Made by a program: the position numbers and the translations under genes
Shown here: piece by piece, positions 305 through 55,760 of the stretch
How positions within the stretch are numbered: position 1 is the first letter of the stretch
How the letters are laid out: every line of letters begins with the position of its first letter
From: Flavobacterium sp. Root935
GTDB lineage: Bacteria; Bacteroidota; Bacteroidia; Flavobacteriales; Flavobacteriaceae
DNA length: 64,000 bases
NCBI RefSeq assembly: GCF_001429295.1
Contig: NZ_LMJL01000012.1
Span: forward strand, 173,511-237,510
Reading direction: 5' to 3'
Notes under the pieces: model-generated
What the model was told of the DNA's origin: nothing
Seen by the model: the letters and a program-made list of their open reading frames with translations, nothing else
The model's database searches: none

Positions 305-421
305 TTTTATATTTTAGATTGTTGATTTTAGATTTTAGATTATTCAAAAAAGAGTATTGAATTAGTAATTTCTAAAATTGATGTTTTGATTGAAATTGAT
401 TTTAATATTGGAATTTGGAAT
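305..421. repeat. hisH-hisA spacer with TTTAGATT tandem words
   Basis: AT-rich spacer containing repeated TTTAGATT words between 311 and 341. The 31-bp block 311-341 recurs exactly, as reverse complement, at 55730-55760 in an unrelated spacer. No promoter or terminator was recognised. Confidence 0.7.
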
Positions 422-1015
422 TTAATCTTTGGATTTTAGTTTCAAAAAGTTTCCAAGAATCTTCTCTCCCACGTCCCCGCTTTTTTCTGGGTGAAATTGG
501 GTTCCGTAAAAATTATCTTTTTGCAAAGCCGATGCATATTCCACGTCATAATTCGTTGTAGCAATAGATTCTGAACAATTTGGCGCATAAAAACTATGAA
601 CTAAATACATGAACTCATTTTCAGAAATTCCGCTGAACAAATCGGTTTTTAAATCATAAATCTGATTCCATCCCATTTGTGGTACTTTTACATTGTTTGA
701 AAATTTCACGACATCAACATCAAAAATTCCTAAACCTTTGGTGTTTCCTTCTTCTGTCTGATTGCACATTAACTGCATTCCGAGACAAATGCCTAAAACA
801 GGTTGTTTTAATTCTGGAATTAAGCTTTCCAAACCACTTTCGCGAAGTTTAGCCATCGCCGAACTTGCCTCGCCCACACCAGGAAAAATCACTTTATCTG
901 CCGATTTAATTTCATCTGGATTATTACTCAAAACAGCCTTAAATCCCAATCTTTCAATAGCAAACATAATGCTCTGAATATTTCCTGCTCCGTAATTTAT
1001 AATTACTATTTTCAT
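422..1015 (-). CDS. hisH: HisH, glutamine amidotransferase subunit of imidazole glycerol phosphate synthase
   Basis: Releases ammonia from glutamine and channels it to HisF, which makes imidazole glycerol phosphate and AICAR from PRFAR. The 197-aa class I amidotransferase has the oxyanion-hole region FPGVGEA (residues 44-50), the nucleophile Cys77 in GICLGMQ, and the His175/Glu177 pair in FHPEKS near the C-terminus, so the triad is complete. Length is normal for bacterial HisH. It sits between hisB and hisA in the his operon, separated from both by repeat-rich spacers rather than by the tight junctions usual in his operons. Confidence 0.97.
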   Translation of the reverse strand: MKIVIINYGAGNIQSIMFAIERLGFKAVLSNNPDEIKSADKVIFPGVGEASSAMAKLRESGLESLIPELKQPVLGICLGMQLMCNQTEEGNTKGLGIFDVDVVKFSNNVKVPQMGWNQIYDLKTDLFSGISENEFMYLVHSFYAPNCSESIATTNYDVEYASALQKDNFYGTQFHPEKSGDVGEKILGNFLKLKSKD

Positions 1016-1082
1016 TAAAAAAGCTTTAAGCTTTAAGCCATAAGCTTTAGGCCTAATGCCTACAGCCTATGCTTATAGCGTT
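1016..1082. repeat. hisB-hisH spacer made of AAGCTTTAAGC-like words
   Basis: The whole 67-bp spacer consists of variants of AAGCTTTAAGC followed by inverted variants (AGGCCTAATGCCT, GCCTATGCTTATAG), so it is strongly self-complementary. The same word family fills the hisG-hisD spacer at 4826-4927. Confidence 0.7.
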
Positions 1083-2219
1083 TTACAACATTCCTTTCGT
1101 CGAAGGCAAAATCATTTTCTCAGTATCTCTTTTTACGGCAACTTTTATCGCTTTCGCGAAAGCTTTAAAAATTGCTTCGATTTTATGATGTTCGTTGATT
1201 CCTTCTGCTTTGATATTTAAGTTGGCTTTTGCACCGTCTGTAAATGATTTGAAGAAATGATAGAACATTTCGGTTGGCATTTTACCGACCATTTCACGTT
1301 TGAATTCGGTTTCCCAAATCAACCAGTTTCTACCGCCGAAATCAATTGCTGCTTGTGCTAAACAATCGTCCATTGGCAAACAGAATCCGTAACGCTCGAT
1401 TCCTAGTTTATTTCCCAATGCTTTTGCGAAAACTTCCCCTAAAGCAATTGCTGTGTCTTCAATTGTGTGGTGCTCATCGACTTCTAAATCGCCTTTTACA
1501 AGAATTTCTAAGTCCATTTGACCGTGACGTGAAATTTGATCTAACATGTGATCGAAAAAGGCAATTCCAGTATCGATTTTGCTTTTTCCGGTTCCATCCA
1601 AGTTTAAATTGATATAAATATCCGTTTCATTTGTTTTACGAGTAATCGATGCCGAACGTGCTTCTAACTTTAAAAACTCATAGATTTTTTTCCAATCCAT
1701 GGTTTGCAAAACAATAGTTTCGTTCAATTCTTCCCGTTTTAATGAAATTTCGTTACTGCCAATTCCATCGATATCATTCATGTAGATCGCTTTTGCTCCC
1801 AGATTTTTAGCCAATTCAACATCGGTTAAACGATCTCCTAAAACGAAAGAATTTTCTAAATCATATTCTGGATTGTTCAAGTATTTGGTCAGCATTCCTG
1901 TTCTAGGTTTGCGTGTTGGCGCATTTTCTTCTGGAAAAGTTCTGTCAACAAAAATTTCATCAAAAACAACTCCTTCATTTTCAAAGGCTTTAAGTATAAA
2001 ATTCTGAGTTGGCCAAAAGGTATCTTCAGGAAAACTATCCGTTCCTAATCCGTCCTGATTGGTTACCATTGCTAATTCGTAGTCTAATTCGCTGGCAATT
2101 TTTGCTAGATATTGAAAAGCTTTTGGGTAAAATTCCAGTTTATCTAAGCTGTCTAATTGGTAATTTTCAGGTTCTAAAACGATCGTTCCGTCGCGATCTA
2201 TAAAAAGTACTTTTTTCAT
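1083..2219 (-). CDS. hisB: HisB, bifunctional histidinol-phosphatase / imidazoleglycerol-phosphate dehydratase
   Basis: Catalyses two non-consecutive steps of histidine synthesis. Residues 1-170 are a HAD-family phosphatase: the nucleophile and acid/base Asp8/Asp10 lie in FIDRDGT, and a later [15 protein letters not shown] gives the conserved metal-binding aspartate. From about 190 an IGP dehydratase domain follows, with the His/Glu-rich manganese sites [18 protein letters not shown] and [14 protein letters not shown]. At 378 aa it is close to the enterobacterial bifunctional HisB. The gene lies between hisC and hisH. The fusion is common in Bacteroidota, so it is not evidence of transfer. 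Confidence 0.97.
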
Positions 2220-2364
2220 CTTTTATTTTTTGAGAATAAAGAGTATAGAAAATAGAGTAAAGAGGATAGACTTTTGATCCTATTTCTAAAGTTCTTACAT
2301 TTTTTTCTTTCTTCTATATTCTTTCTTCTATATTCTTTACTCTATATTCTTTACTCTATTTTTT
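2220..2364. repeat. hisC-hisB spacer: inverted arms of ATTCTTTACTCTAT-like words
   Basis: A purine-rich arm (2231-2270) and a pyrimidine-rich arm (2311-2360) built of tandem variants of the same word. An exact 12-bp inverted match pairs AATAGAGTAAAG (2251-2262) with CTTTACTCTATT (2349-2360). The transcript can form a long imperfect hairpin. There is no U-run typical of an intrinsic terminator. Confidence 0.75.
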
Positions 2365-3411
2365 CTATTTCAATAACTTTAATTCTCTAATTAAAACAGC
2401 ATTTTCCTCTTCTGTTCCAATAGTAAAACGGAGACAATTTTCGCATAAAGGCTGAGTGGTTCTGTTACGAATTACAATTCCTTTTTCGATTAATTGATCG
2501 TATCTTTTGTTAGCATCATCTACTTTAACCAAAACAAAATTAGCTTCTGTAGGATAAATTTTTTCTACAAAATCTACCTCAAGTAACACTTTAAGTAATT
2601 CTTCTCTTTGCTTGATAATAGAAGCTATTTCCTGTTTTATCTTTTCAGAATCTTTTAAACGTTCAATAGCTCTTTGCTGTGTTAATTCGTTTACGTTATA
2701 AGGCGGTTTAATTTTATTCAAAACCGAAATAACAGCTTCAGATGCGTAACAAATTCCCAAACGAATTCCAGCCAAACCATATGCTTTTGAAAGCGTCTGA
2801 GTAATTACCAAATTTGGATATTCATCAATTTCCACAAGCCAGCTTTCTTTTTCTGAAAAGTCAATATAAGCTTCATCAATCACTACTAAACCTTTAAAGT
2901 TTTGAAGTAATTTCACAATGCTTTCGTCTGAAAAAGAATTTCCAGTCGGGTTATTGGGTGAGCATAAAAAGATGATTTTTGTATTTTCATCGACAGCTTC
3001 TAAAATTTTTTCTACTTGAGGCTGAAAATCATTTGTAAGCAGAATTTCTCTGTTTTCTACTGCGTTGATATTCGCTAAGACGCTGTACATTCCGTATGTA
3101 GGCGGCAACGTGATAATGTTATCTGTTTTTGGTTCACAGAAAGCTCTGAAAATCAAATCTAAAACTTCGTCACTTCCGTTTCCTAACAAAATCTGACTCT
3201 GTTTTGTATTGTTATTTTTGGCTAAAAGTGCTTTAACCGAATTCTGCTGTGGATCTGGATAACGATTTACTCCATTTTGAAACGGATTTTCATTTGCATC
3301 CAAAAAAATCATATCTGCAGTATCAAAATCTTCAAACTCATCTCTCGCCGAAGAATATGGTTTTAAAGATTTTACGTTTTCACGTGTAATTGTATTTATA
3401 TCGAATTTCAT
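2365..3411 (-). CDS. hisC: HisC, histidinol-phosphate aminotransferase
   Basis: PLP-dependent class I/II aminotransferase that converts imidazole acetol phosphate to histidinol phosphate. Visible motifs: LGNGSDEVLDLIFRAF, the Asn of CSPNNPTGN, IDEAYIDF, the PLP lysine in TLSKAYGLAGIRLG, and the substrate-binding Arg in LRFTIGT at the C-terminus. An in-frame ATG at 3465 would add 18 residues (MLEVYSLYSILYILKIKI), but those codons are translated spacer repeat. I choose the ATG at 3411 (MKFDINTITRENVKSL), which matches normal HisC N-termini and gives 348 aa. It lies between hisD and hisB. Confidence 0.95.
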   Translation of the reverse strand: MKFDINTITRENVKSLKPYSSARDEFEDFDTADMIFLDANENPFQNGVNRYPDPQQNSVKALLAKNNNTKQSQILLGNGSDEVLDLIFRAFCEPKTDNIITLPPTYGMYSVLANINAVENREILLTNDFQPQVEKILEAVDENTKIIFLCSPNNPTGNSFSDESIVKLLQNFKGLVVIDEAYIDFSEKESWLVEIDEYPNLVITQTLSKAYGLAGIRLGICYASEAVISVLNKIKPPYNVNELTQQRAIERLKDSEKIKQEIASIIKQREELLKVLLEVDFVEKIYPTEANFVLVKVDDANKRYDQLIEKGIVIRNRTTQPLCENCLRFTIGTEEENAVLIRELKLLK

Positions 3412-3541
3412 TATCTTAATTTTTAGAATATAGAGAATAGAATAAAGAGAATAAACTTCCAACATTATCTATTATTTTCTATTCTATGTTCTTTCTTCTA
3501 TTTTCTATATTCTGTGTTCTATATTCTGTGTTCTATATTCT
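3412..3541. repeat. hisD-hisC spacer: TTCTATATTCT tandem words with inverted arm
   Basis: Pyrimidine-rich tandem words of the TTCTATATTCTGTG type (3473-3545) face a purine-rich arm GAATATAGAGAATAGAATAA (3425-3444). The words are close relatives of those in the hisC-hisB spacer. Confidence 0.7.
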
Positions 3542-4825
3542 TTATTCTAAACTCTTCAGTCTTAAGGTAACAGCATTCTTATGCGCTTGCAAACCTTCCG
3601 CTTCAGCCATAAGCTCAATTGCTTTTCCAATATTTTGAATCCCTTTTTCTGAAATTTTTTGGAATGTCATCGATTTCATGAAACTATCTAAATTTACACC
3701 GCTGTAATTTTTAGCGTATCCGTTTGTTGGCAAGGTATGATTTGTTCCTGATGCATAATCTCCAGCACTTTCAGGAGTATAATTTCCAATAAAAACAGAA
3801 CCTGCATTTACGATTCCGTTGCAGTAAAAATCATCGTATTGAGAACAGATGATAAAGTGCTCTGGCCCGTATTCGTTGATTAAATCTAAAGCAATCTTAT
3901 CATTTTCCACATAAATCAATTTCGAATTTTCAATTGCTTTTTCTGCAATTGCTTTTCTGGGAAGAACTTCTATTTGAGATTGGATTTCCTTTTCTACTTC
4001 ATCAATTAATTTCTTTGAAGTCGAAACCAAAATTACCTGACTATCAGTTCCATGTTCTGCCTGAGACAATAAATCTGATGCTACAAATGCAGGAACCGCC
4101 GTATCATCAGCAACAATTAATAATTCTGAAGGACCAGCAGGCATGTCAATTGCAACACCAAATTGAGTTGCTAATTGCTTAGCTACGGTTACAAACTGAT
4201 TTCCAGGGCCGAAAATTTTATACACTTTTGGAATAGATTGTGTTCCAAATGTCATTCCGGCGATCGCCTGAATTCCGCCTACTTTTAAAATCTTAGTTAC
4301 ACCGCATAAATTTGCTGCATATAAAATTGCTGGATTAATTTTTCCTGATTTATCTGGCGGCGAACACAAAACAATTTCTTTGCAGCCCGCAATTTCAGCA
4401 GGAACAGCAAGCATTAAAACTGTTGAAAACAAAGGGGCTGTTCCTCCTGGAATATACAAACCAATTTTCTGAATTGGTCTTTTTTCCTGCCAGCAGTTTA
4501 CGCCTTCGATAGTATCTAGTTCAATTCTATCTGTTTTTTGAGCTTTGTGAAATTTATAAATATTGTCTTTTGCTAATTTGATTGCCTCTTTTAATTCGTT
4601 CGGAATCAGATTAATTGCTTCACTAATTTCTTCTTTAGAAACTTCATAATTATCTAAGGAAATTCCATCAAAGATTGAAGTGTATTTTGCAACTGCTTCA
4701 TCTCCTTTTTTCTGAACTTCTTTGAAGATTTCTTTTACCGTAACCTCAATATCATCAATGGTTTGAGTTGGTCTCTTTAATATTTCAGACCAGGTTTCTG
4801 GTTTTGGATTGTTTATCTTATTCAT
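3542..4825 (-). CDS. hisD: HisD, histidinol dehydrogenase
   Basis: Zinc-dependent NAD+ oxidoreductase for the last two steps, histidinol to histidine. The 427-aa protein carries the family blocks: RPIQKIGLYIPGGTAPLFSTVLM, KVYKIFGPGNQFVTVAKQ, IDMPAGPSELLIVAD, DLLSQAEHGTDSQ (zinc ligands Gln and His) and YGPEHFIICS (catalytic Glu-His). The C-terminal SAGDYASGTNHTLPTNGYA is diagnostic. Length is normal. It is the second structural gene of the operon, downstream of hisG. Confidence 0.97.
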   Translation of the reverse strand: MNKINNPKPETWSEILKRPTQTIDDIEVTVKEIFKEVQKKGDEAVAKYTSIFDGISLDNYEVSKEEISEAINLIPNELKEAIKLAKDNIYKFHKAQKTDRIELDTIEGVNCWQEKRPIQKIGLYIPGGTAPLFSTVLMLAVPAEIAGCKEIVLCSPPDKSGKINPAILYAANLCGVTKILKVGGIQAIAGMTFGTQSIPKVYKIFGPGNQFVTVAKQLATQFGVAIDMPAGPSELLIVADDTAVPAFVASDLLSQAEHGTDSQVILVSTSKKLIDEVEKEIQSQIEVLPRKAIAEKAIENSKLIYVENDKIALDLINEYGPEHFIICSQYDDFYCNGIVNAGSVFIGNYTPESAGDYASGTNHTLPTNGYAKNYSGVNLDSFMKSMTFQKISEKGIQNIGKAIELMAEAEGLQAHKNAVTLRLKSLE

Positions 4826-4927
4826 TATTTTTATGCTTTATGCTATAAGCTGTAGGCTTTAAGCTTTTTAAACTATCTTTAATTTCTTTGGCAAAAGCTT
4901 AAAGCCTATTGCCTAAAGCTTAAAGCT
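4826..4927. repeat. hisG-hisD spacer with a 15-bp perfect inverted repeat
   Basis: AGGCTTTAAGCTTTT (4854-4868) is repeated as its exact reverse complement AAAAGCTTAAAGCCT (4893-4907), with a 24-nt loop. Further AAGCTTTAAG variants flank both arms. It shares its word family with the hisB-hisH spacer. Confidence 0.85.
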
Positions 4928-5785
4928 TTAAAGAACCATTTTCTCAATTGGGCAAACCAAAATTCCTTCTGCTCCAACTTCTTTTAACTGGTCGATTACA
5001 TCCCAAAAAGTATCTTTATCGATTACCGAGTGCACACTGCTCCAGCCTTCCTGTGCCAATGGCAAAACGGTTAAACTTCTTAAAACCGGAAGAATTTTTC
5101 CAACAGCATCAATCTTGTCGTTTGGAACGTTCATTAAAATGTATTTTGAATTTCTAGCTCTTAAAACCGCCTGAATTCTGAATTTTAAAGTATCAATATG
5201 TTTTTGAATTTCTGGAGAAACTTTTGGAGAAACGGCTAAAACTGCTTCACTTTTCAAGATAACTTCAACTTCTTTTAAATTGTTCTTGAATAAAGTGCTT
5301 CCGCTTGAAACGATATCTACAATTGCATCTGCAAGACCAATGTTTGGAGCGATTTCTACAGAACCAGAAATTTGGTGAATGTCTACACTTAAACCAAATT
5401 TATTAAAATATTCGTTAACTGTATTGGGATAAGAAGTTGCAATACGCAATCCAGCTAAATCTTGTATTGAATTATATTCCAAAGTTTTAGGAACAGCAAC
5501 AGAAACTTTACATTTTGAGAATCCTAATTTTTGAACCACTTCGATTCCTTTTCCTTTTTCTACCAAAAGATTGTCGCCAACAATAGCGAGATCTACTACT
5601 CCATCAATTAAATATTGAGGAATATCTGAATTTCTAAGATACAAAACTTCAAGAGGAAAATTAGAAGCTTCGGCCTTTAGCTGGTCGATTCCGTTGTTGA
5701 TCGAAATACCGCAGTCTTTTAAGATTTGGATGCTGTCTTCGTTTAAACGACCTGATTTTTGAATTGCAATTTTTAAAGTACTCAT
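4928..5785 (-). CDS. hisG: HisG, ATP phosphoribosyltransferase (long form)
   Basis: First, committed enzyme of histidine synthesis: joins ATP and PRPP to phosphoribosyl-ATP. The 285-aa length is the long form with a C-terminal ACT-like regulatory domain (about 210-285, ending GVGAEGILVCPIEKMVL style), so no HisZ is needed and feedback inhibition by histidine is expected. Motifs: IAIQKSGRLNEDS at the N-terminus, VDLAIVGDNLL, RIATSYPNTVNEYF, and the PRPP loop IVDIVSSGSTLFKNNL. It directly follows the leader peptide and attenuator, as first gene of the operon. Confidence 0.97.
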   Translation of the reverse strand: MSTLKIAIQKSGRLNEDSIQILKDCGISINNGIDQLKAEASNFPLEVLYLRNSDIPQYLIDGVVDLAIVGDNLLVEKGKGIEVVQKLGFSKCKVSVAVPKTLEYNSIQDLAGLRIATSYPNTVNEYFNKFGLSVDIHQISGSVEIAPNIGLADAIVDIVSSGSTLFKNNLKEVEVILKSEAVLAVSPKVSPEIQKHIDTLKFRIQAVLRARNSKYILMNVPNDKIDAVGKILPVLRSLTVLPLAQEGWSSVHSVIDKDTFWDVIDQLKEVGAEGILVCPIEKMVL

Positions 5786-5834
5786 TTTTTTAGTTGTTTG
5801 TTGGGTTTATAGTTTGAGTACAAAGAGTTAGAAT

Positions 5835-5868
5835 AAAAAAACCCGTTTGATGTACTCAAACGGGTTTT
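5835..5868 (-). terminator. his operon attenuator (intrinsic terminator hairpin)
   Basis: On the minus strand a perfect 13-bp stem AAAACCCGTTTGA / TCAAACGGGTTTT with a 5-nt loop is followed by a T-run. It lies between the leader peptide stop (5896) and hisG (5785), which is where an attenuator must be. Ribosome stalling on the leader His codons would favour an alternative fold and read-through. Confidence 0.92.
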
Positions 5869-5895
5869 AAAATATGATGATTTACACGCATACCA

Positions 5896-5955
5896 TTAAC
5901 ACATCGCTTGAGAGCAATTATGTAGATGATGATGATGTAATTGAATTGAAATCAT
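5896..5955 (-). CDS. his operon leader peptide (19 aa)
   Basis: Short ORF MISIQLHHHHLHNCSQAMC between the his promoter and the attenuator. Five of its 19 codons are His (four in a row, then Leu-His), so translation stalls when charged tRNA-His is scarce. The ATG is at 5955 and the TAA at 5896-5898. It is too short for ordinary gene finding but is supported by the His run, the terminator 28 nt downstream and the first his gene after that. The mechanism (transcription attenuation as in the enterobacterial his operon) is inferred from the architecture. Confidence 0.93.
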   Translation of the reverse strand: MISIQLHHHHLHNCSQAMC

Positions 5956-32117: not shown

Positions 32118-32213
32118 TTGTTTTTATTTTATTTATTTTTTGTTGAATCGTTAAACCGTTTAACTGTTTTTTCGATTAAACGATTAAACAAATAAACAAT
32201 TAAACTTTTTATT
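32118..32213. repeat. lpxA-efp spacer with GATTAAAC tandem words
   Basis: GTTAAACCGTTTAAC (near-palindrome, about 32151-32165) followed by tandem CGATTAAAC, GATTAAAC, AATAAAC, AATTAAAC words. Imperfectly self-complementary. Confidence 0.6.
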
Positions 32214-46564: not shown

Positions 46565-46954
46565 TTACTTAAATTTAAGTCCTTTGAACTCACAGTTCCT
46601 TAAATAATTCATCATCGCTCCTATTTTATTTTTTTCTATTTCAGTCATTTCATTTAATTTCAGATGTTGCTCTTCTGAAATCAATTTTTTGTCAAAAGCT
46701 CTGTAAGATTGCGATTTTACTTCTCCAGCTGAACCTTTTGCAATACTCAAGAATTGTATAAATTCTCTATTTCCATTTCTTTCAAAACCTTCTGCAATAT
46801 TATCCATTATAGATCCTGAACTTCTATCGATTTGATCTTTGAGTGAATAATTTGTTTTTAAAGTTGTTGTCTGGATTAATAACTCAACATATTGACATAA
46901 TTCTCTAGCTTTTTGCCAAATTTCTAAATCTTCAAATTTATTTATTTTTGCCAT
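46565..46954 (-). CDS. Four-helix-bundle protein (S23/IVS-type)
   Basis: 129 aa. The sequence FEDLEIWQKARELCQYVELLI, then IDRSSGSIMDNIAEGFERNG and REFIQFLSIAKGSAGEVKSQ, is the signature of the S23 family first found in intervening sequences of 23S rRNA and also related to diversity-generating retroelement accessory proteins. No rRNA, reverse transcriptase or variable repeat is in this window, so this is a stand-alone gene. Such proteins are common single genes in Bacteroidota; the function is unknown. It precedes ettA on the same strand. Confidence 0.85.
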   Translation of the reverse strand: MAKINKFEDLEIWQKARELCQYVELLIQTTTLKTNYSLKDQIDRSSGSIMDNIAEGFERNGNREFIQFLSIAKGSAGEVKSQSYRAFDKKLISEEQHLKLNEMTEIEKNKIGAMMNYLRNCEFKGLKFK

Positions 46955-46957
46955 AAC

Positions 46958-47013
46958 AACAAATTATAAGCAACAAACTATAAGCAACAAACTATAAGCA
47001 ACAAACTACAAAC
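46958..47013. repeat. Four tandem copies of a 14-bp unit
   Basis: AACAAACTATAAGC repeated at 46958-46971, 46972-46985, 46986-46999 and 47000-47013; copies 2 and 3 are identical, 1 and 4 carry one to three changes. It sits directly before the start of the four-helix-bundle gene and after the stop of the small membrane protein gene. Confidence 0.85.
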
Positions 47014-51514: not shown

Positions 51515-51534
51515 AATTTTTTTAGTTTTTTTAT

Positions 51535-51595
51535 TTCAGGTTTTAGGCTGCAAGTTGTTTTTCATAACTTGAAACATGAAACTTGAAACATTTTT
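51535..51595. repeat. Spacer with ACTTGAAAC tandem words
   Basis: CAAGTTG (about 51551) faces AACTTGAAACATGAAACTTG (51568-51587), giving a small inverted repeat plus direct repeats. Confidence 0.55.
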
Positions 51596-55684: not shown

Positions 55685-55760
55685 AAATATTTTAGAATTC
55701 AGATTTTAGATTTTAGATTGAGTTTTCATAATCTAAAATCTAAAATCAACAATCTAAAAT
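55685..55760. repeat. Hairpin spacer of GATTTTAGATT words between convergent genes
   Basis: AGATTTTAGATTTTAGATT (55701-55719) faces AATCTAAAATCTAAAAT (55730-55746), a near-perfect hairpin with a 10-nt loop. The block 55730-55760 is the exact reverse complement of 311-341 in the his operon. Confidence 0.9.

Follow-up and report, generated by a model that had tools for sequence, protein, structure and literature searches.

Heptamer and octamer repeat arrays in the spacers of a Flavobacterium his operon and across its genome

What fills the gaps between the genes of the his operon in Flavobacterium sp. Root935, and does the operon make use of it? We addressed this question in a 64,000-nt stretch of DNA (the window; contig NZ_LMJL01000012.1, positions 173,511 to 237,510) from a 5.08-Mb Flavobacterium-type genome (G000). 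All five his junctions within the window carried tandem arrays of degenerate 7-nt units, and arrays of 7-nt or 8-nt units recurred in other intergenic gaps of the same genome. In our preferred reading, to which we assign a probability of roughly 0.55, the his spacers are short-period, self-renewing intergenic satellites lodged in transcribed gaps.

Arrays in the his junctions

The operon lies on the minus strand in the order hisG-hisD-hisC-hisB(bifunctional)-hisH-hisA-hisF-hisIE, all eight gene names being confirmed by NCBIfam. The window contains hisG (4928–5785), hisD (3542–4825), hisC (2365–3411), the bifunctional hisB (1083–2219), hisH (422–1015) and a hisA truncated by the window edge (up to 304), with hisF and hisIE located immediately beyond that edge. 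Among the matches listed, the closest named relatives by HisB were Flavobacterium notoginsengisoli and F. johnsoniae CI04. The five spacers measured 102, 130, 145, 67 and 117 nt from hisG-hisD to hisH-hisA, in agreement with the 67–145 bp of an earlier, sequence-only reading of this DNA, and the tandem words which that reading had seen in every spacer proved to be period-7 arrays in 5/5, with a single pitch of 7 nt. Tandem Repeats Finder placed the arrays at 305–341, 408–423, 1021–1049, 2312–2359, 3468–3549, 4830–4867 and 4894–4933. Lag-7 identity was 0.56–0.72 in four spacers (for hisD-hisC taken on 3466–3541), compared with only 0.24–0.33 at lags 6 and 8; the hisH-hisA spacer was merged with the truncated hisA gene in this measurement and, taken separately, passed the gap threshold described below.

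The hisG-hisD spacer (4826–4927) consists of two facing heptamer arrays, reading GCTTTAA GCTTTAG GCAATAG ... loop ... TTAAAGC CTACAGC TTATAGC ATAAAGC on the sense strand, and was characterized by Tandem Repeats Finder, its fold (z −6.3) and a six-species alignment. At hisD-hisC (3412–3541), a 10-unit AGAA-type heptamer array lies opposite a TTCT-type arm, as indicated by Tandem Repeats Finder, column analysis, folding and alignment; by the first three of these approaches, AGAA/TTCT words as in hisD-hisC form the facing arms of the hisC-hisB spacer (2220–2364), whose right arm is one 7-nt unit longer than in the related loci L002 and L004. The hisB-hisH spacer (1016–1082) is a mismatched palindrome of eight GC-nn-TA-r units, one of them 6 nt long (Tandem Repeats Finder, fold and consensus fold), and the hisH-hisA spacer (305–421) contains an AATCTAA array (305–341) and an AATTCCA pair (408–421) (Tandem Repeats Finder, gap scan and fold). 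When each spacer was folded against 200 dinucleotide shuffles of itself, the four strongly folding ones gave z-scores of −6.3, −4.7, −3.6 and −2.8 on the sense strand and −4.8, −4.3, −3.4 and −2.6 on the antisense strand. The hisH-hisA fold was weak (−7.3 kcal/mol; z −2.5 sense, −0.8 antisense), which agrees with the earlier count of four spacers with inverted clusters. The sharing of word families that had been noticed between junctions was also visible by eye, the AAGC/TAA type being common to hisG-hisD and hisB-hisH and the AGAA type to hisD-hisC and hisC-hisB.

A genome-wide class of short-period arrays

We scanned 1,257,510 bp of the host genome (C10:1–1037510 and C1:1–220000), comprising 743 gaps of 30–600 nt between open reading frames (ORFs) delimited by a simple ATG-only caller (≥80 aa), with one fixed score threshold for every period. 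Period 7 reached the threshold in 58/743 gaps and period 8 in 26/743, and their doubles 14 and 16 did so in 30 and 19 gaps, respectively, compared with just 1–4 gaps for each of the periods 4–6, 9–13, 15, 17 and 18. The gaps are AT-rich, and low-complexity sequence could appear periodic by chance; however, Markov shuffles of the sampled gaps yielded 3.3 gaps at period 7 (versus the observed 58) and 2.3 at period 8, and neighboring periods were not enriched. We therefore rejected this explanation, the probability of which we regard as negligible. Both periods combined, 79/743 gaps carried an array, which extrapolates to ~320 per genome. By gap type, arrays were found in 54/501 same-strand, 22/110 convergent and only 3/132 divergent gaps (Fisher 1.5e-4). 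Arrays were rare in ORFs, with 3 of 1,091 reaching the threshold at period 7 and 3 at period 8. In a small control sample of E. coli (50 kb), 0/31 gaps contained an array.

The words are diverse. Heptamers recognized by eye included TTTCARG, TTTTAGA, TTTGGAA, TTTAAGC, AGAATAT, ATGTGAA, TTATAAC and CCATCAA, and octamers AACCTTAG, AACCTTTG, GTTTAATC and AATTATCT. One word pattern, GTTTCANGTTTCANGTTTCA, had 98 copies in the host genome (reversed control 0) and was present in 30/61 genomes of the genus, reaching 220 copies in one 3.7-Mb genome (control 9). Facing arms forming a stem above threshold were found in 13/22 same-strand array gaps of the host genome (457-kb part), 25/60 such gaps of relatives and 9/10 convergent array gaps. 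Elsewhere in the window, members of the class are inverted TTTTAGA/AATCTAA heptamer arrays between convergent genes (55685–55759; Tandem Repeats Finder and gap scan), an 8-nt array of GTTTAATC / GATTAAAC on the minus strand (32118–32213; gap scan) and a TTTCAAG array in a same-strand gap, also on the minus strand (51515–51595), which passed a looser threshold only. The top array score in the sample belonged to a 442-nt gap at C10:520646–521087 of G000 with ~50 heptamer units in facing arms GTTAATG / ATAAACT. Separately, a 14-nt tandem repeat, ATAAGCAACAAACT, present in 4 copies with 95% matches at 46953–47008 of the window, is legible as two alternating 7-nt words.

One explanation of the 7- and 8-nt pitches, neither of them a multiple of three, was that they place stop codons in all frames; it was rejected. 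Sense stops in 106 same-strand arrays numbered 529, compared with 465 ± 25 in column-permuted units, and antisense stops 486 compared with 414 ± 22, whereas 24 convergent arrays held 90 against 92. Because antisense stops were raised equally and convergent arrays were not raised, the effect was not strand-specific.

Arrays are not specific to his, since 47/494 other same-strand gaps carried one, but the operon is saturated with them. Just beyond the window, both hisA-hisF, with the 8-nt word AATTATCT, and hisF-hisIE contained arrays, bringing the his junctions that passed to 7/7 (P 1.2e-7, post hoc); with gaps limited to 60–150 nt, the comparison was 7/7 with 24/219 same-strand gaps (P 4.8e-7, post hoc). 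The convergent gap after hisIE carried a long array too, and AATTATCT was seen by eye at hisA-hisF in L003, L004, L006 and L007, with L004 and L007 taken by a strict caller (score ≥13). Neighboring pairs of array gaps numbered 13 against 8.3 expected with his included (p 0.05) and 6 against 6.9 with his excluded. A general clustering of arrays in operons was rejected on this basis, and the saturation appeared to be peculiar to his within the sample.

For comparison with relatives, we used the best 80 of at least 591 matches (12 Flavobacterium loci and 68 other loci). At a separate threshold of 17 of 21 positions, period-7 arrays in same-strand gaps were found in 18/109 at the Flavobacterium loci (shuffled 0.3) and in 21/376 at the other 68 loci (shuffled 0.0); period 8 was not clearly enriched (3 versus 1.0 shuffled and 2 versus 0.3, respectively). 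Among spacers of 45–180 nt at the 68 non-Flavobacterium loci, arrays occurred in 8/26 at hisB-hisH and in 3/67 at the other four his junctions; the rest of the same-strand gaps, a set that includes hisA-hisF and hisF-hisIE, had them in 6/139. In some remoter genera, hisB-hisH held GCTAAAA or ACCAACA words.

The strict caller detected arrays in the seven nearest relatives at hisG-hisD (5/7), hisD-hisC (1/7), hisC-hisB (0/7), hisB-hisH (5/6) and hisH-hisA (4/7), overlooking AGAA arrays visible by eye at hisC-hisB in L002 and L004 and at hisD-hisC in L003, L006 and L007. Inspection by eye of the window and L002–L008 indicated that words at one junction were often common to sister species and sometimes replaced. 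The AAGC/TAA word was present in 6/8 of these genomes at hisG-hisD and in 4/8 at hisB-hisH, where L003 and, with a longer interval, L006 had a TTTCAAG word and L004 a GTC-TAAA-like word; the AGAA word was present in 3/8 at hisC-hisB, where the others held longer repeats or a palindrome. In L005 (6873), L008 (6897), L009 (6815) and L010 (6845), the place of the heptamer array before hisB is taken by a longer element that looks structured (TTTGCGTGAGGGAT ...), and an Rfam scan of this element in L005, L008 and L010 returned no match. At L003 6947–7000 and in the hisB-hisH spacer of L013, the heptamer array is replaced by short palindromes of AACCTG..CAGGTT and AACCTTGTAGG types, another REP-like class (REP, repetitive extragenic palindrome). 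The length differences of whole units that we saw were one 7-nt unit at hisC-hisB and, at hisH-hisA, a gap of 7 nt, with irregular gaps elsewhere. Some relatives had tight or overlapping his junctions (−1, −4, −8, −11), which in L015, L053, L061, L063, L070 and L079, for example, included most or all of the five. The sequence-only reading had suggested that repeats may have opened the operon, and had looked to related species for a decision. Tight junctions in some relatives, and word-bearing spacers that vary by species in the nearest Flavobacterium, make such an opening, possibly by insertion, plausible.

Columns, folds and competing explanations

Mismatches were concentrated in certain columns of the unit in 49/86 arrays at p<0.05 and in 34/86 at p<0.01 (arrays with ≥5 units and ≥4 mismatches; the p-values assume random mutation and no spread of variant units). 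In 35 one-arm cores, 37/90 of the free columns held three or four letters. The same partition was visible between species at the five his junctions, where columns invariant within an array varied in 12/132 cases and free columns in 44/85 (P 3e-12); the DNA of hisB itself differs by 12–17%. This count used those of the 8 genomes that share the word at each junction (6, 4, 5, 4 and 3), with the seven segments and their rows picked by hand and L007 and L008, which carry related words, excluded at hisH-hisA. Mismatches within stems (limited to those with ≥3 mismatches) were spaced accordingly: in 78 period-7 stems, coincidence at lag 7 was 212 versus 121 ± 9 shuffled (z 10.5), all other lags from 3 to 12 remaining within z 2.3, and in 23 period-8 stems, coincidence at lag 8 was 56 versus 42 ± 5. 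Shuffling of units alone would yield part of these column and lag patterns, and the many letters in free columns favor point mutation with protected columns. In the four-species consensus fold, hisB-hisH took the form of a ladder: three helices of 5 bp with 2x2 internal loops between them, and a further, outer helix of 3 bp. By hand count, its variable columns comprised 7/15 unpaired and 3/36 paired positions. The hisG-hisD and hisD-hisC folds were less regular ladders. The idea that free columns avoid pairing was dropped, as ~8/21 free positions were paired, near chance, by eye in 8/11 GTTTCA elements.

In the preferred reading, the satellites are built of several to many degenerate 7- or 8-nt units, often as two facing arrays able to form a hairpin. 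They would most likely grow and renew themselves by duplication and deletion of unit length through slipped annealing within and between arms, and the presence of the same word at many loci suggests that word families spread by some copying route. Arrays would persist where they cost least, in the gaps after stop codons; that they are rare within genes, and in the promoter-bearing gaps between divergent genes, was observed directly. Molecular drive could explain the observed column pattern if the columns needed for arm-to-arm annealing are held fixed and the others drift. Over time, such elements may have turned tight his junctions into spacers of 67–145 nt, any effect on the expression of single his genes being a by-product. 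Several observations weigh against this reading. Outside Flavobacterium, hisB-hisH recurs as a host junction, as might be expected of a hot spot or of selection; neither the restriction to pitches 7 and 8 nor the single saturated operon (a post hoc observation) is accounted for by passive slippage; the fraction of free columns with three or four letters suits constrained point mutation better than the spread of one variant unit; and a threshold stem was absent from 9/22 own and 35/60 relatives' same-strand arrays, and thus the hairpin is not a constant part.

One alternative is a regulatory role in the his mRNA. Upstream of hisG on the minus strand, a short-ORF search identified a his leader peptide, MISIQLHHHHLHNCSQAMC, with an HHHH run (5896–5955), followed by a terminator-like hairpin and T run (5835–5868 by sequence reading, the T run at −56 from hisG), a putative attenuator. 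The Rfam His_leader model scored 35.9 bits over 5833–5938 (E 0.0002), short of the 49 bits that it requires; a model for a Streptococcus small RNA, which is unrelated, scored near it (E 0.0005). A short ORF with ≥3 consecutive His residues ≤420 nt upstream of hisG was present in 70/77 regions drawn from the window and L002–L081 (a raw count with no chance control), and many of these ORFs had, by eye, a C-terminal QA-(R/S/N/K) motif. The Flavobacterium psychrophilum transcriptome, in the part of the report available, gives clues to leader-peptide attenuation ahead of amino-acid operons (PMC9723704). The leader likely controls the entire his operon, and all the his spacers are therefore probably within one mRNA. 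Hairpins selected as his-mRNA elements could block 3′-to-5′ decay, keep the translation of adjacent genes apart or act as marks for processing, setting the dosage per junction. This is possible, though we consider it doubtful. It would fit with the strong folding of four of the five spacers, with the location of arrays in same-strand and convergent gaps, and with hisG-hisD, whose arms are conserved over six species and where 2/25 pairs changed on both sides and were kept. However, no such two-sided change was found at hisD-hisC (0/20 pairs) or hisB-hisH (0/18), although few compensations are expected at this distance between the species, which makes these counts weak evidence either way. If an mRNA hairpin were under selection, the mismatches tolerated on the transcribed strand should be G-U and not A-C. 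Scored symmetrically for the two strands, the G-U to A-C ratio leaned that way in same-strand gaps of the host genome (23:14, 457-kb sample) but the other way in relatives (34:59), which are not independent lineages, and was 12:11 in convergent gaps, where the strand is arbitrary. Of 51 own gaps, the mRNA strand folded better than its complement in 21 and less well in 29; the corresponding figures were 17 and 36 for 53 gaps of relatives (p 0.03, opposite to the direction expected) and 126 and 111 for 240 control gaps. Close species also swap words and entire spacers, and some relatives lack spacers. Thus, the spacers do have the potential to fold into hairpins, but selection at the RNA level was not supported, and neither was the earlier suggestion that the spacers may tune gene dosage, the G-U bias being inconsistent and the mRNA strand folding no better than its complement.

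Alternatively, the recognized feature may be the architecture rather than the word, with ~5-bp helices separated by free internal loops of 2 or 3 nt giving 7 and 8 as the sole pitches; the arrays would then form an undescribed Flavobacteriaceae class of ladder hairpins whose sequences are interchangeable, which a structure-sensitive factor reads or writes and which are kept at junctions such as hisB-hisH. We offer this tentatively and consider it unlikely, the clean ladder having been observed at hisB-hisH and the 8-nt words backing it by mismatch pitch alone. Otherwise, the fixed columns may serve as repeated binding sites, each subunit of a protein contacting a single 7–8-nt unit; the Csp, S1 and CsrA families or a TRAP-like protein would be candidates. 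Column-specific conservation within arrays and among species would suit such a protein, and the available part of one paper reports B. subtilis CspB on heptamer repeats, one protein per heptamer, and suggests Csp, S1 or CsrA families as binders of TAACTGA repeats (PMC4679880). About a dozen distinct words occur in one genome, and a single sequence-specific binder can hardly serve all of them, which leaves this explanation quite improbable. Mobilization of the arrays as REP elements by a REP-associated tyrosine transposase (RAYT, a Y1 transposase) could be envisaged from their dispersed intergenic occurrence with facing arms and from a loop sequence common to two pairs among 11 GTTTCA elements. 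For two Flavobacterium genomes, the available part of a survey tabulates REP-like sequences in the thousands, and the hairpins described here may be among them (PMC12306157). However, the genome has just two Y1_Tnp genes, and the gaps beside both lack a 7- or 8-nt array (best score 10, with 13 needed) and contain other repeats; we rejected the link, which has very little probability left. The two Y1 transposase genes themselves (L142, L143) lie amid the repeats GCTCCGCTGGAGC and GTTCCGTTAGGAAC ... TTGGTAGAAA, possible REP/RAYT pairs.

Known heptamer repeats and significance of the class

REP elements and bacterial interspersed mosaic elements of E. coli and Pseudomonas are dispersed intergenic palindromes with RAYT transposases. 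The arrays resemble them as dispersed intergenic palindromes and differ in having no RAYT association, arms made of tandem arrays and many word families. Like the Xanthomonas/Nostoc-type intergenic heptamer arrays, they consist of partly variable 7-nt tandem units and are intergenic and genome-wide. As far as the available parts of the following papers describe, a close parallel is the GGGAATC heptamer repeat of Xanthomonas (Rehm et al. 2015, PMC4692102), a unit GGGANTN with fixed and variable columns that is mostly intergenic and genome-wide, occurs as facing arrays in 70–75 cases, and, at a given gene pair, differs in length and sequence from one close relative to the next. Its single G-rich word forms G-quadruplexes (PMC4692102), whereas the words found here are many, AT-rich and free of G runs, with GGG in none of the listed consensus units; an 8-nt period, one wholly filled operon and replacement of the word at a junction come in addition. 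TAACTGA direct repeats of Beggiatoaceae, Cyanobacteria and five Bacteroidetes, for which translational control was proposed, are likewise intergenic heptamers, often ending beside a start codon, and in Gramella forsetii and A. sublithincola other heptamer direct repeats share their gaps (MacGregor 2015, PMC4679880). They represent a single fixed word in direct orientation, with one inverted case in 170 sets in the main genome (PMC4679880), in contrast to the many words and often facing arms here; TAACTGA in any rotation or strand was not among our listed consensus units, although no dedicated search was made. Heptameric simple sequence repeats are reported to be over-represented in prokaryotes, with polymerase slippage proposed as the cause (Mrazek et al. 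2007, as cited in PMC4692102 and PMC4679880). In the accessible literature on heptamer, REP, stem-loop and inverted repeats of Flavobacterium and Bacteroidetes (mostly non-subscription papers), we found no description of the class for Flavobacterium. By this comparison, the arrays appear akin to the heptamers of Xanthomonas, Nostoc and Beggiatoaceae, and set apart by many AT-rich words, a pitch of 8 and one fully filled operon.

The genome offers an estimated few hundred arrays with many words, two pitches and facing arms, and at one gene pair sister species may have common words or exchanged ones; counts should therefore be able to tell slippage, annealing drive and structural selection apart. 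Intergenic arrays of this kind may reshape operons, and the his operon, with 7/7 junctions filled and a leader-peptide attenuator ahead of them, provides a small system in which to ask whether such spacers alter gene dosage.

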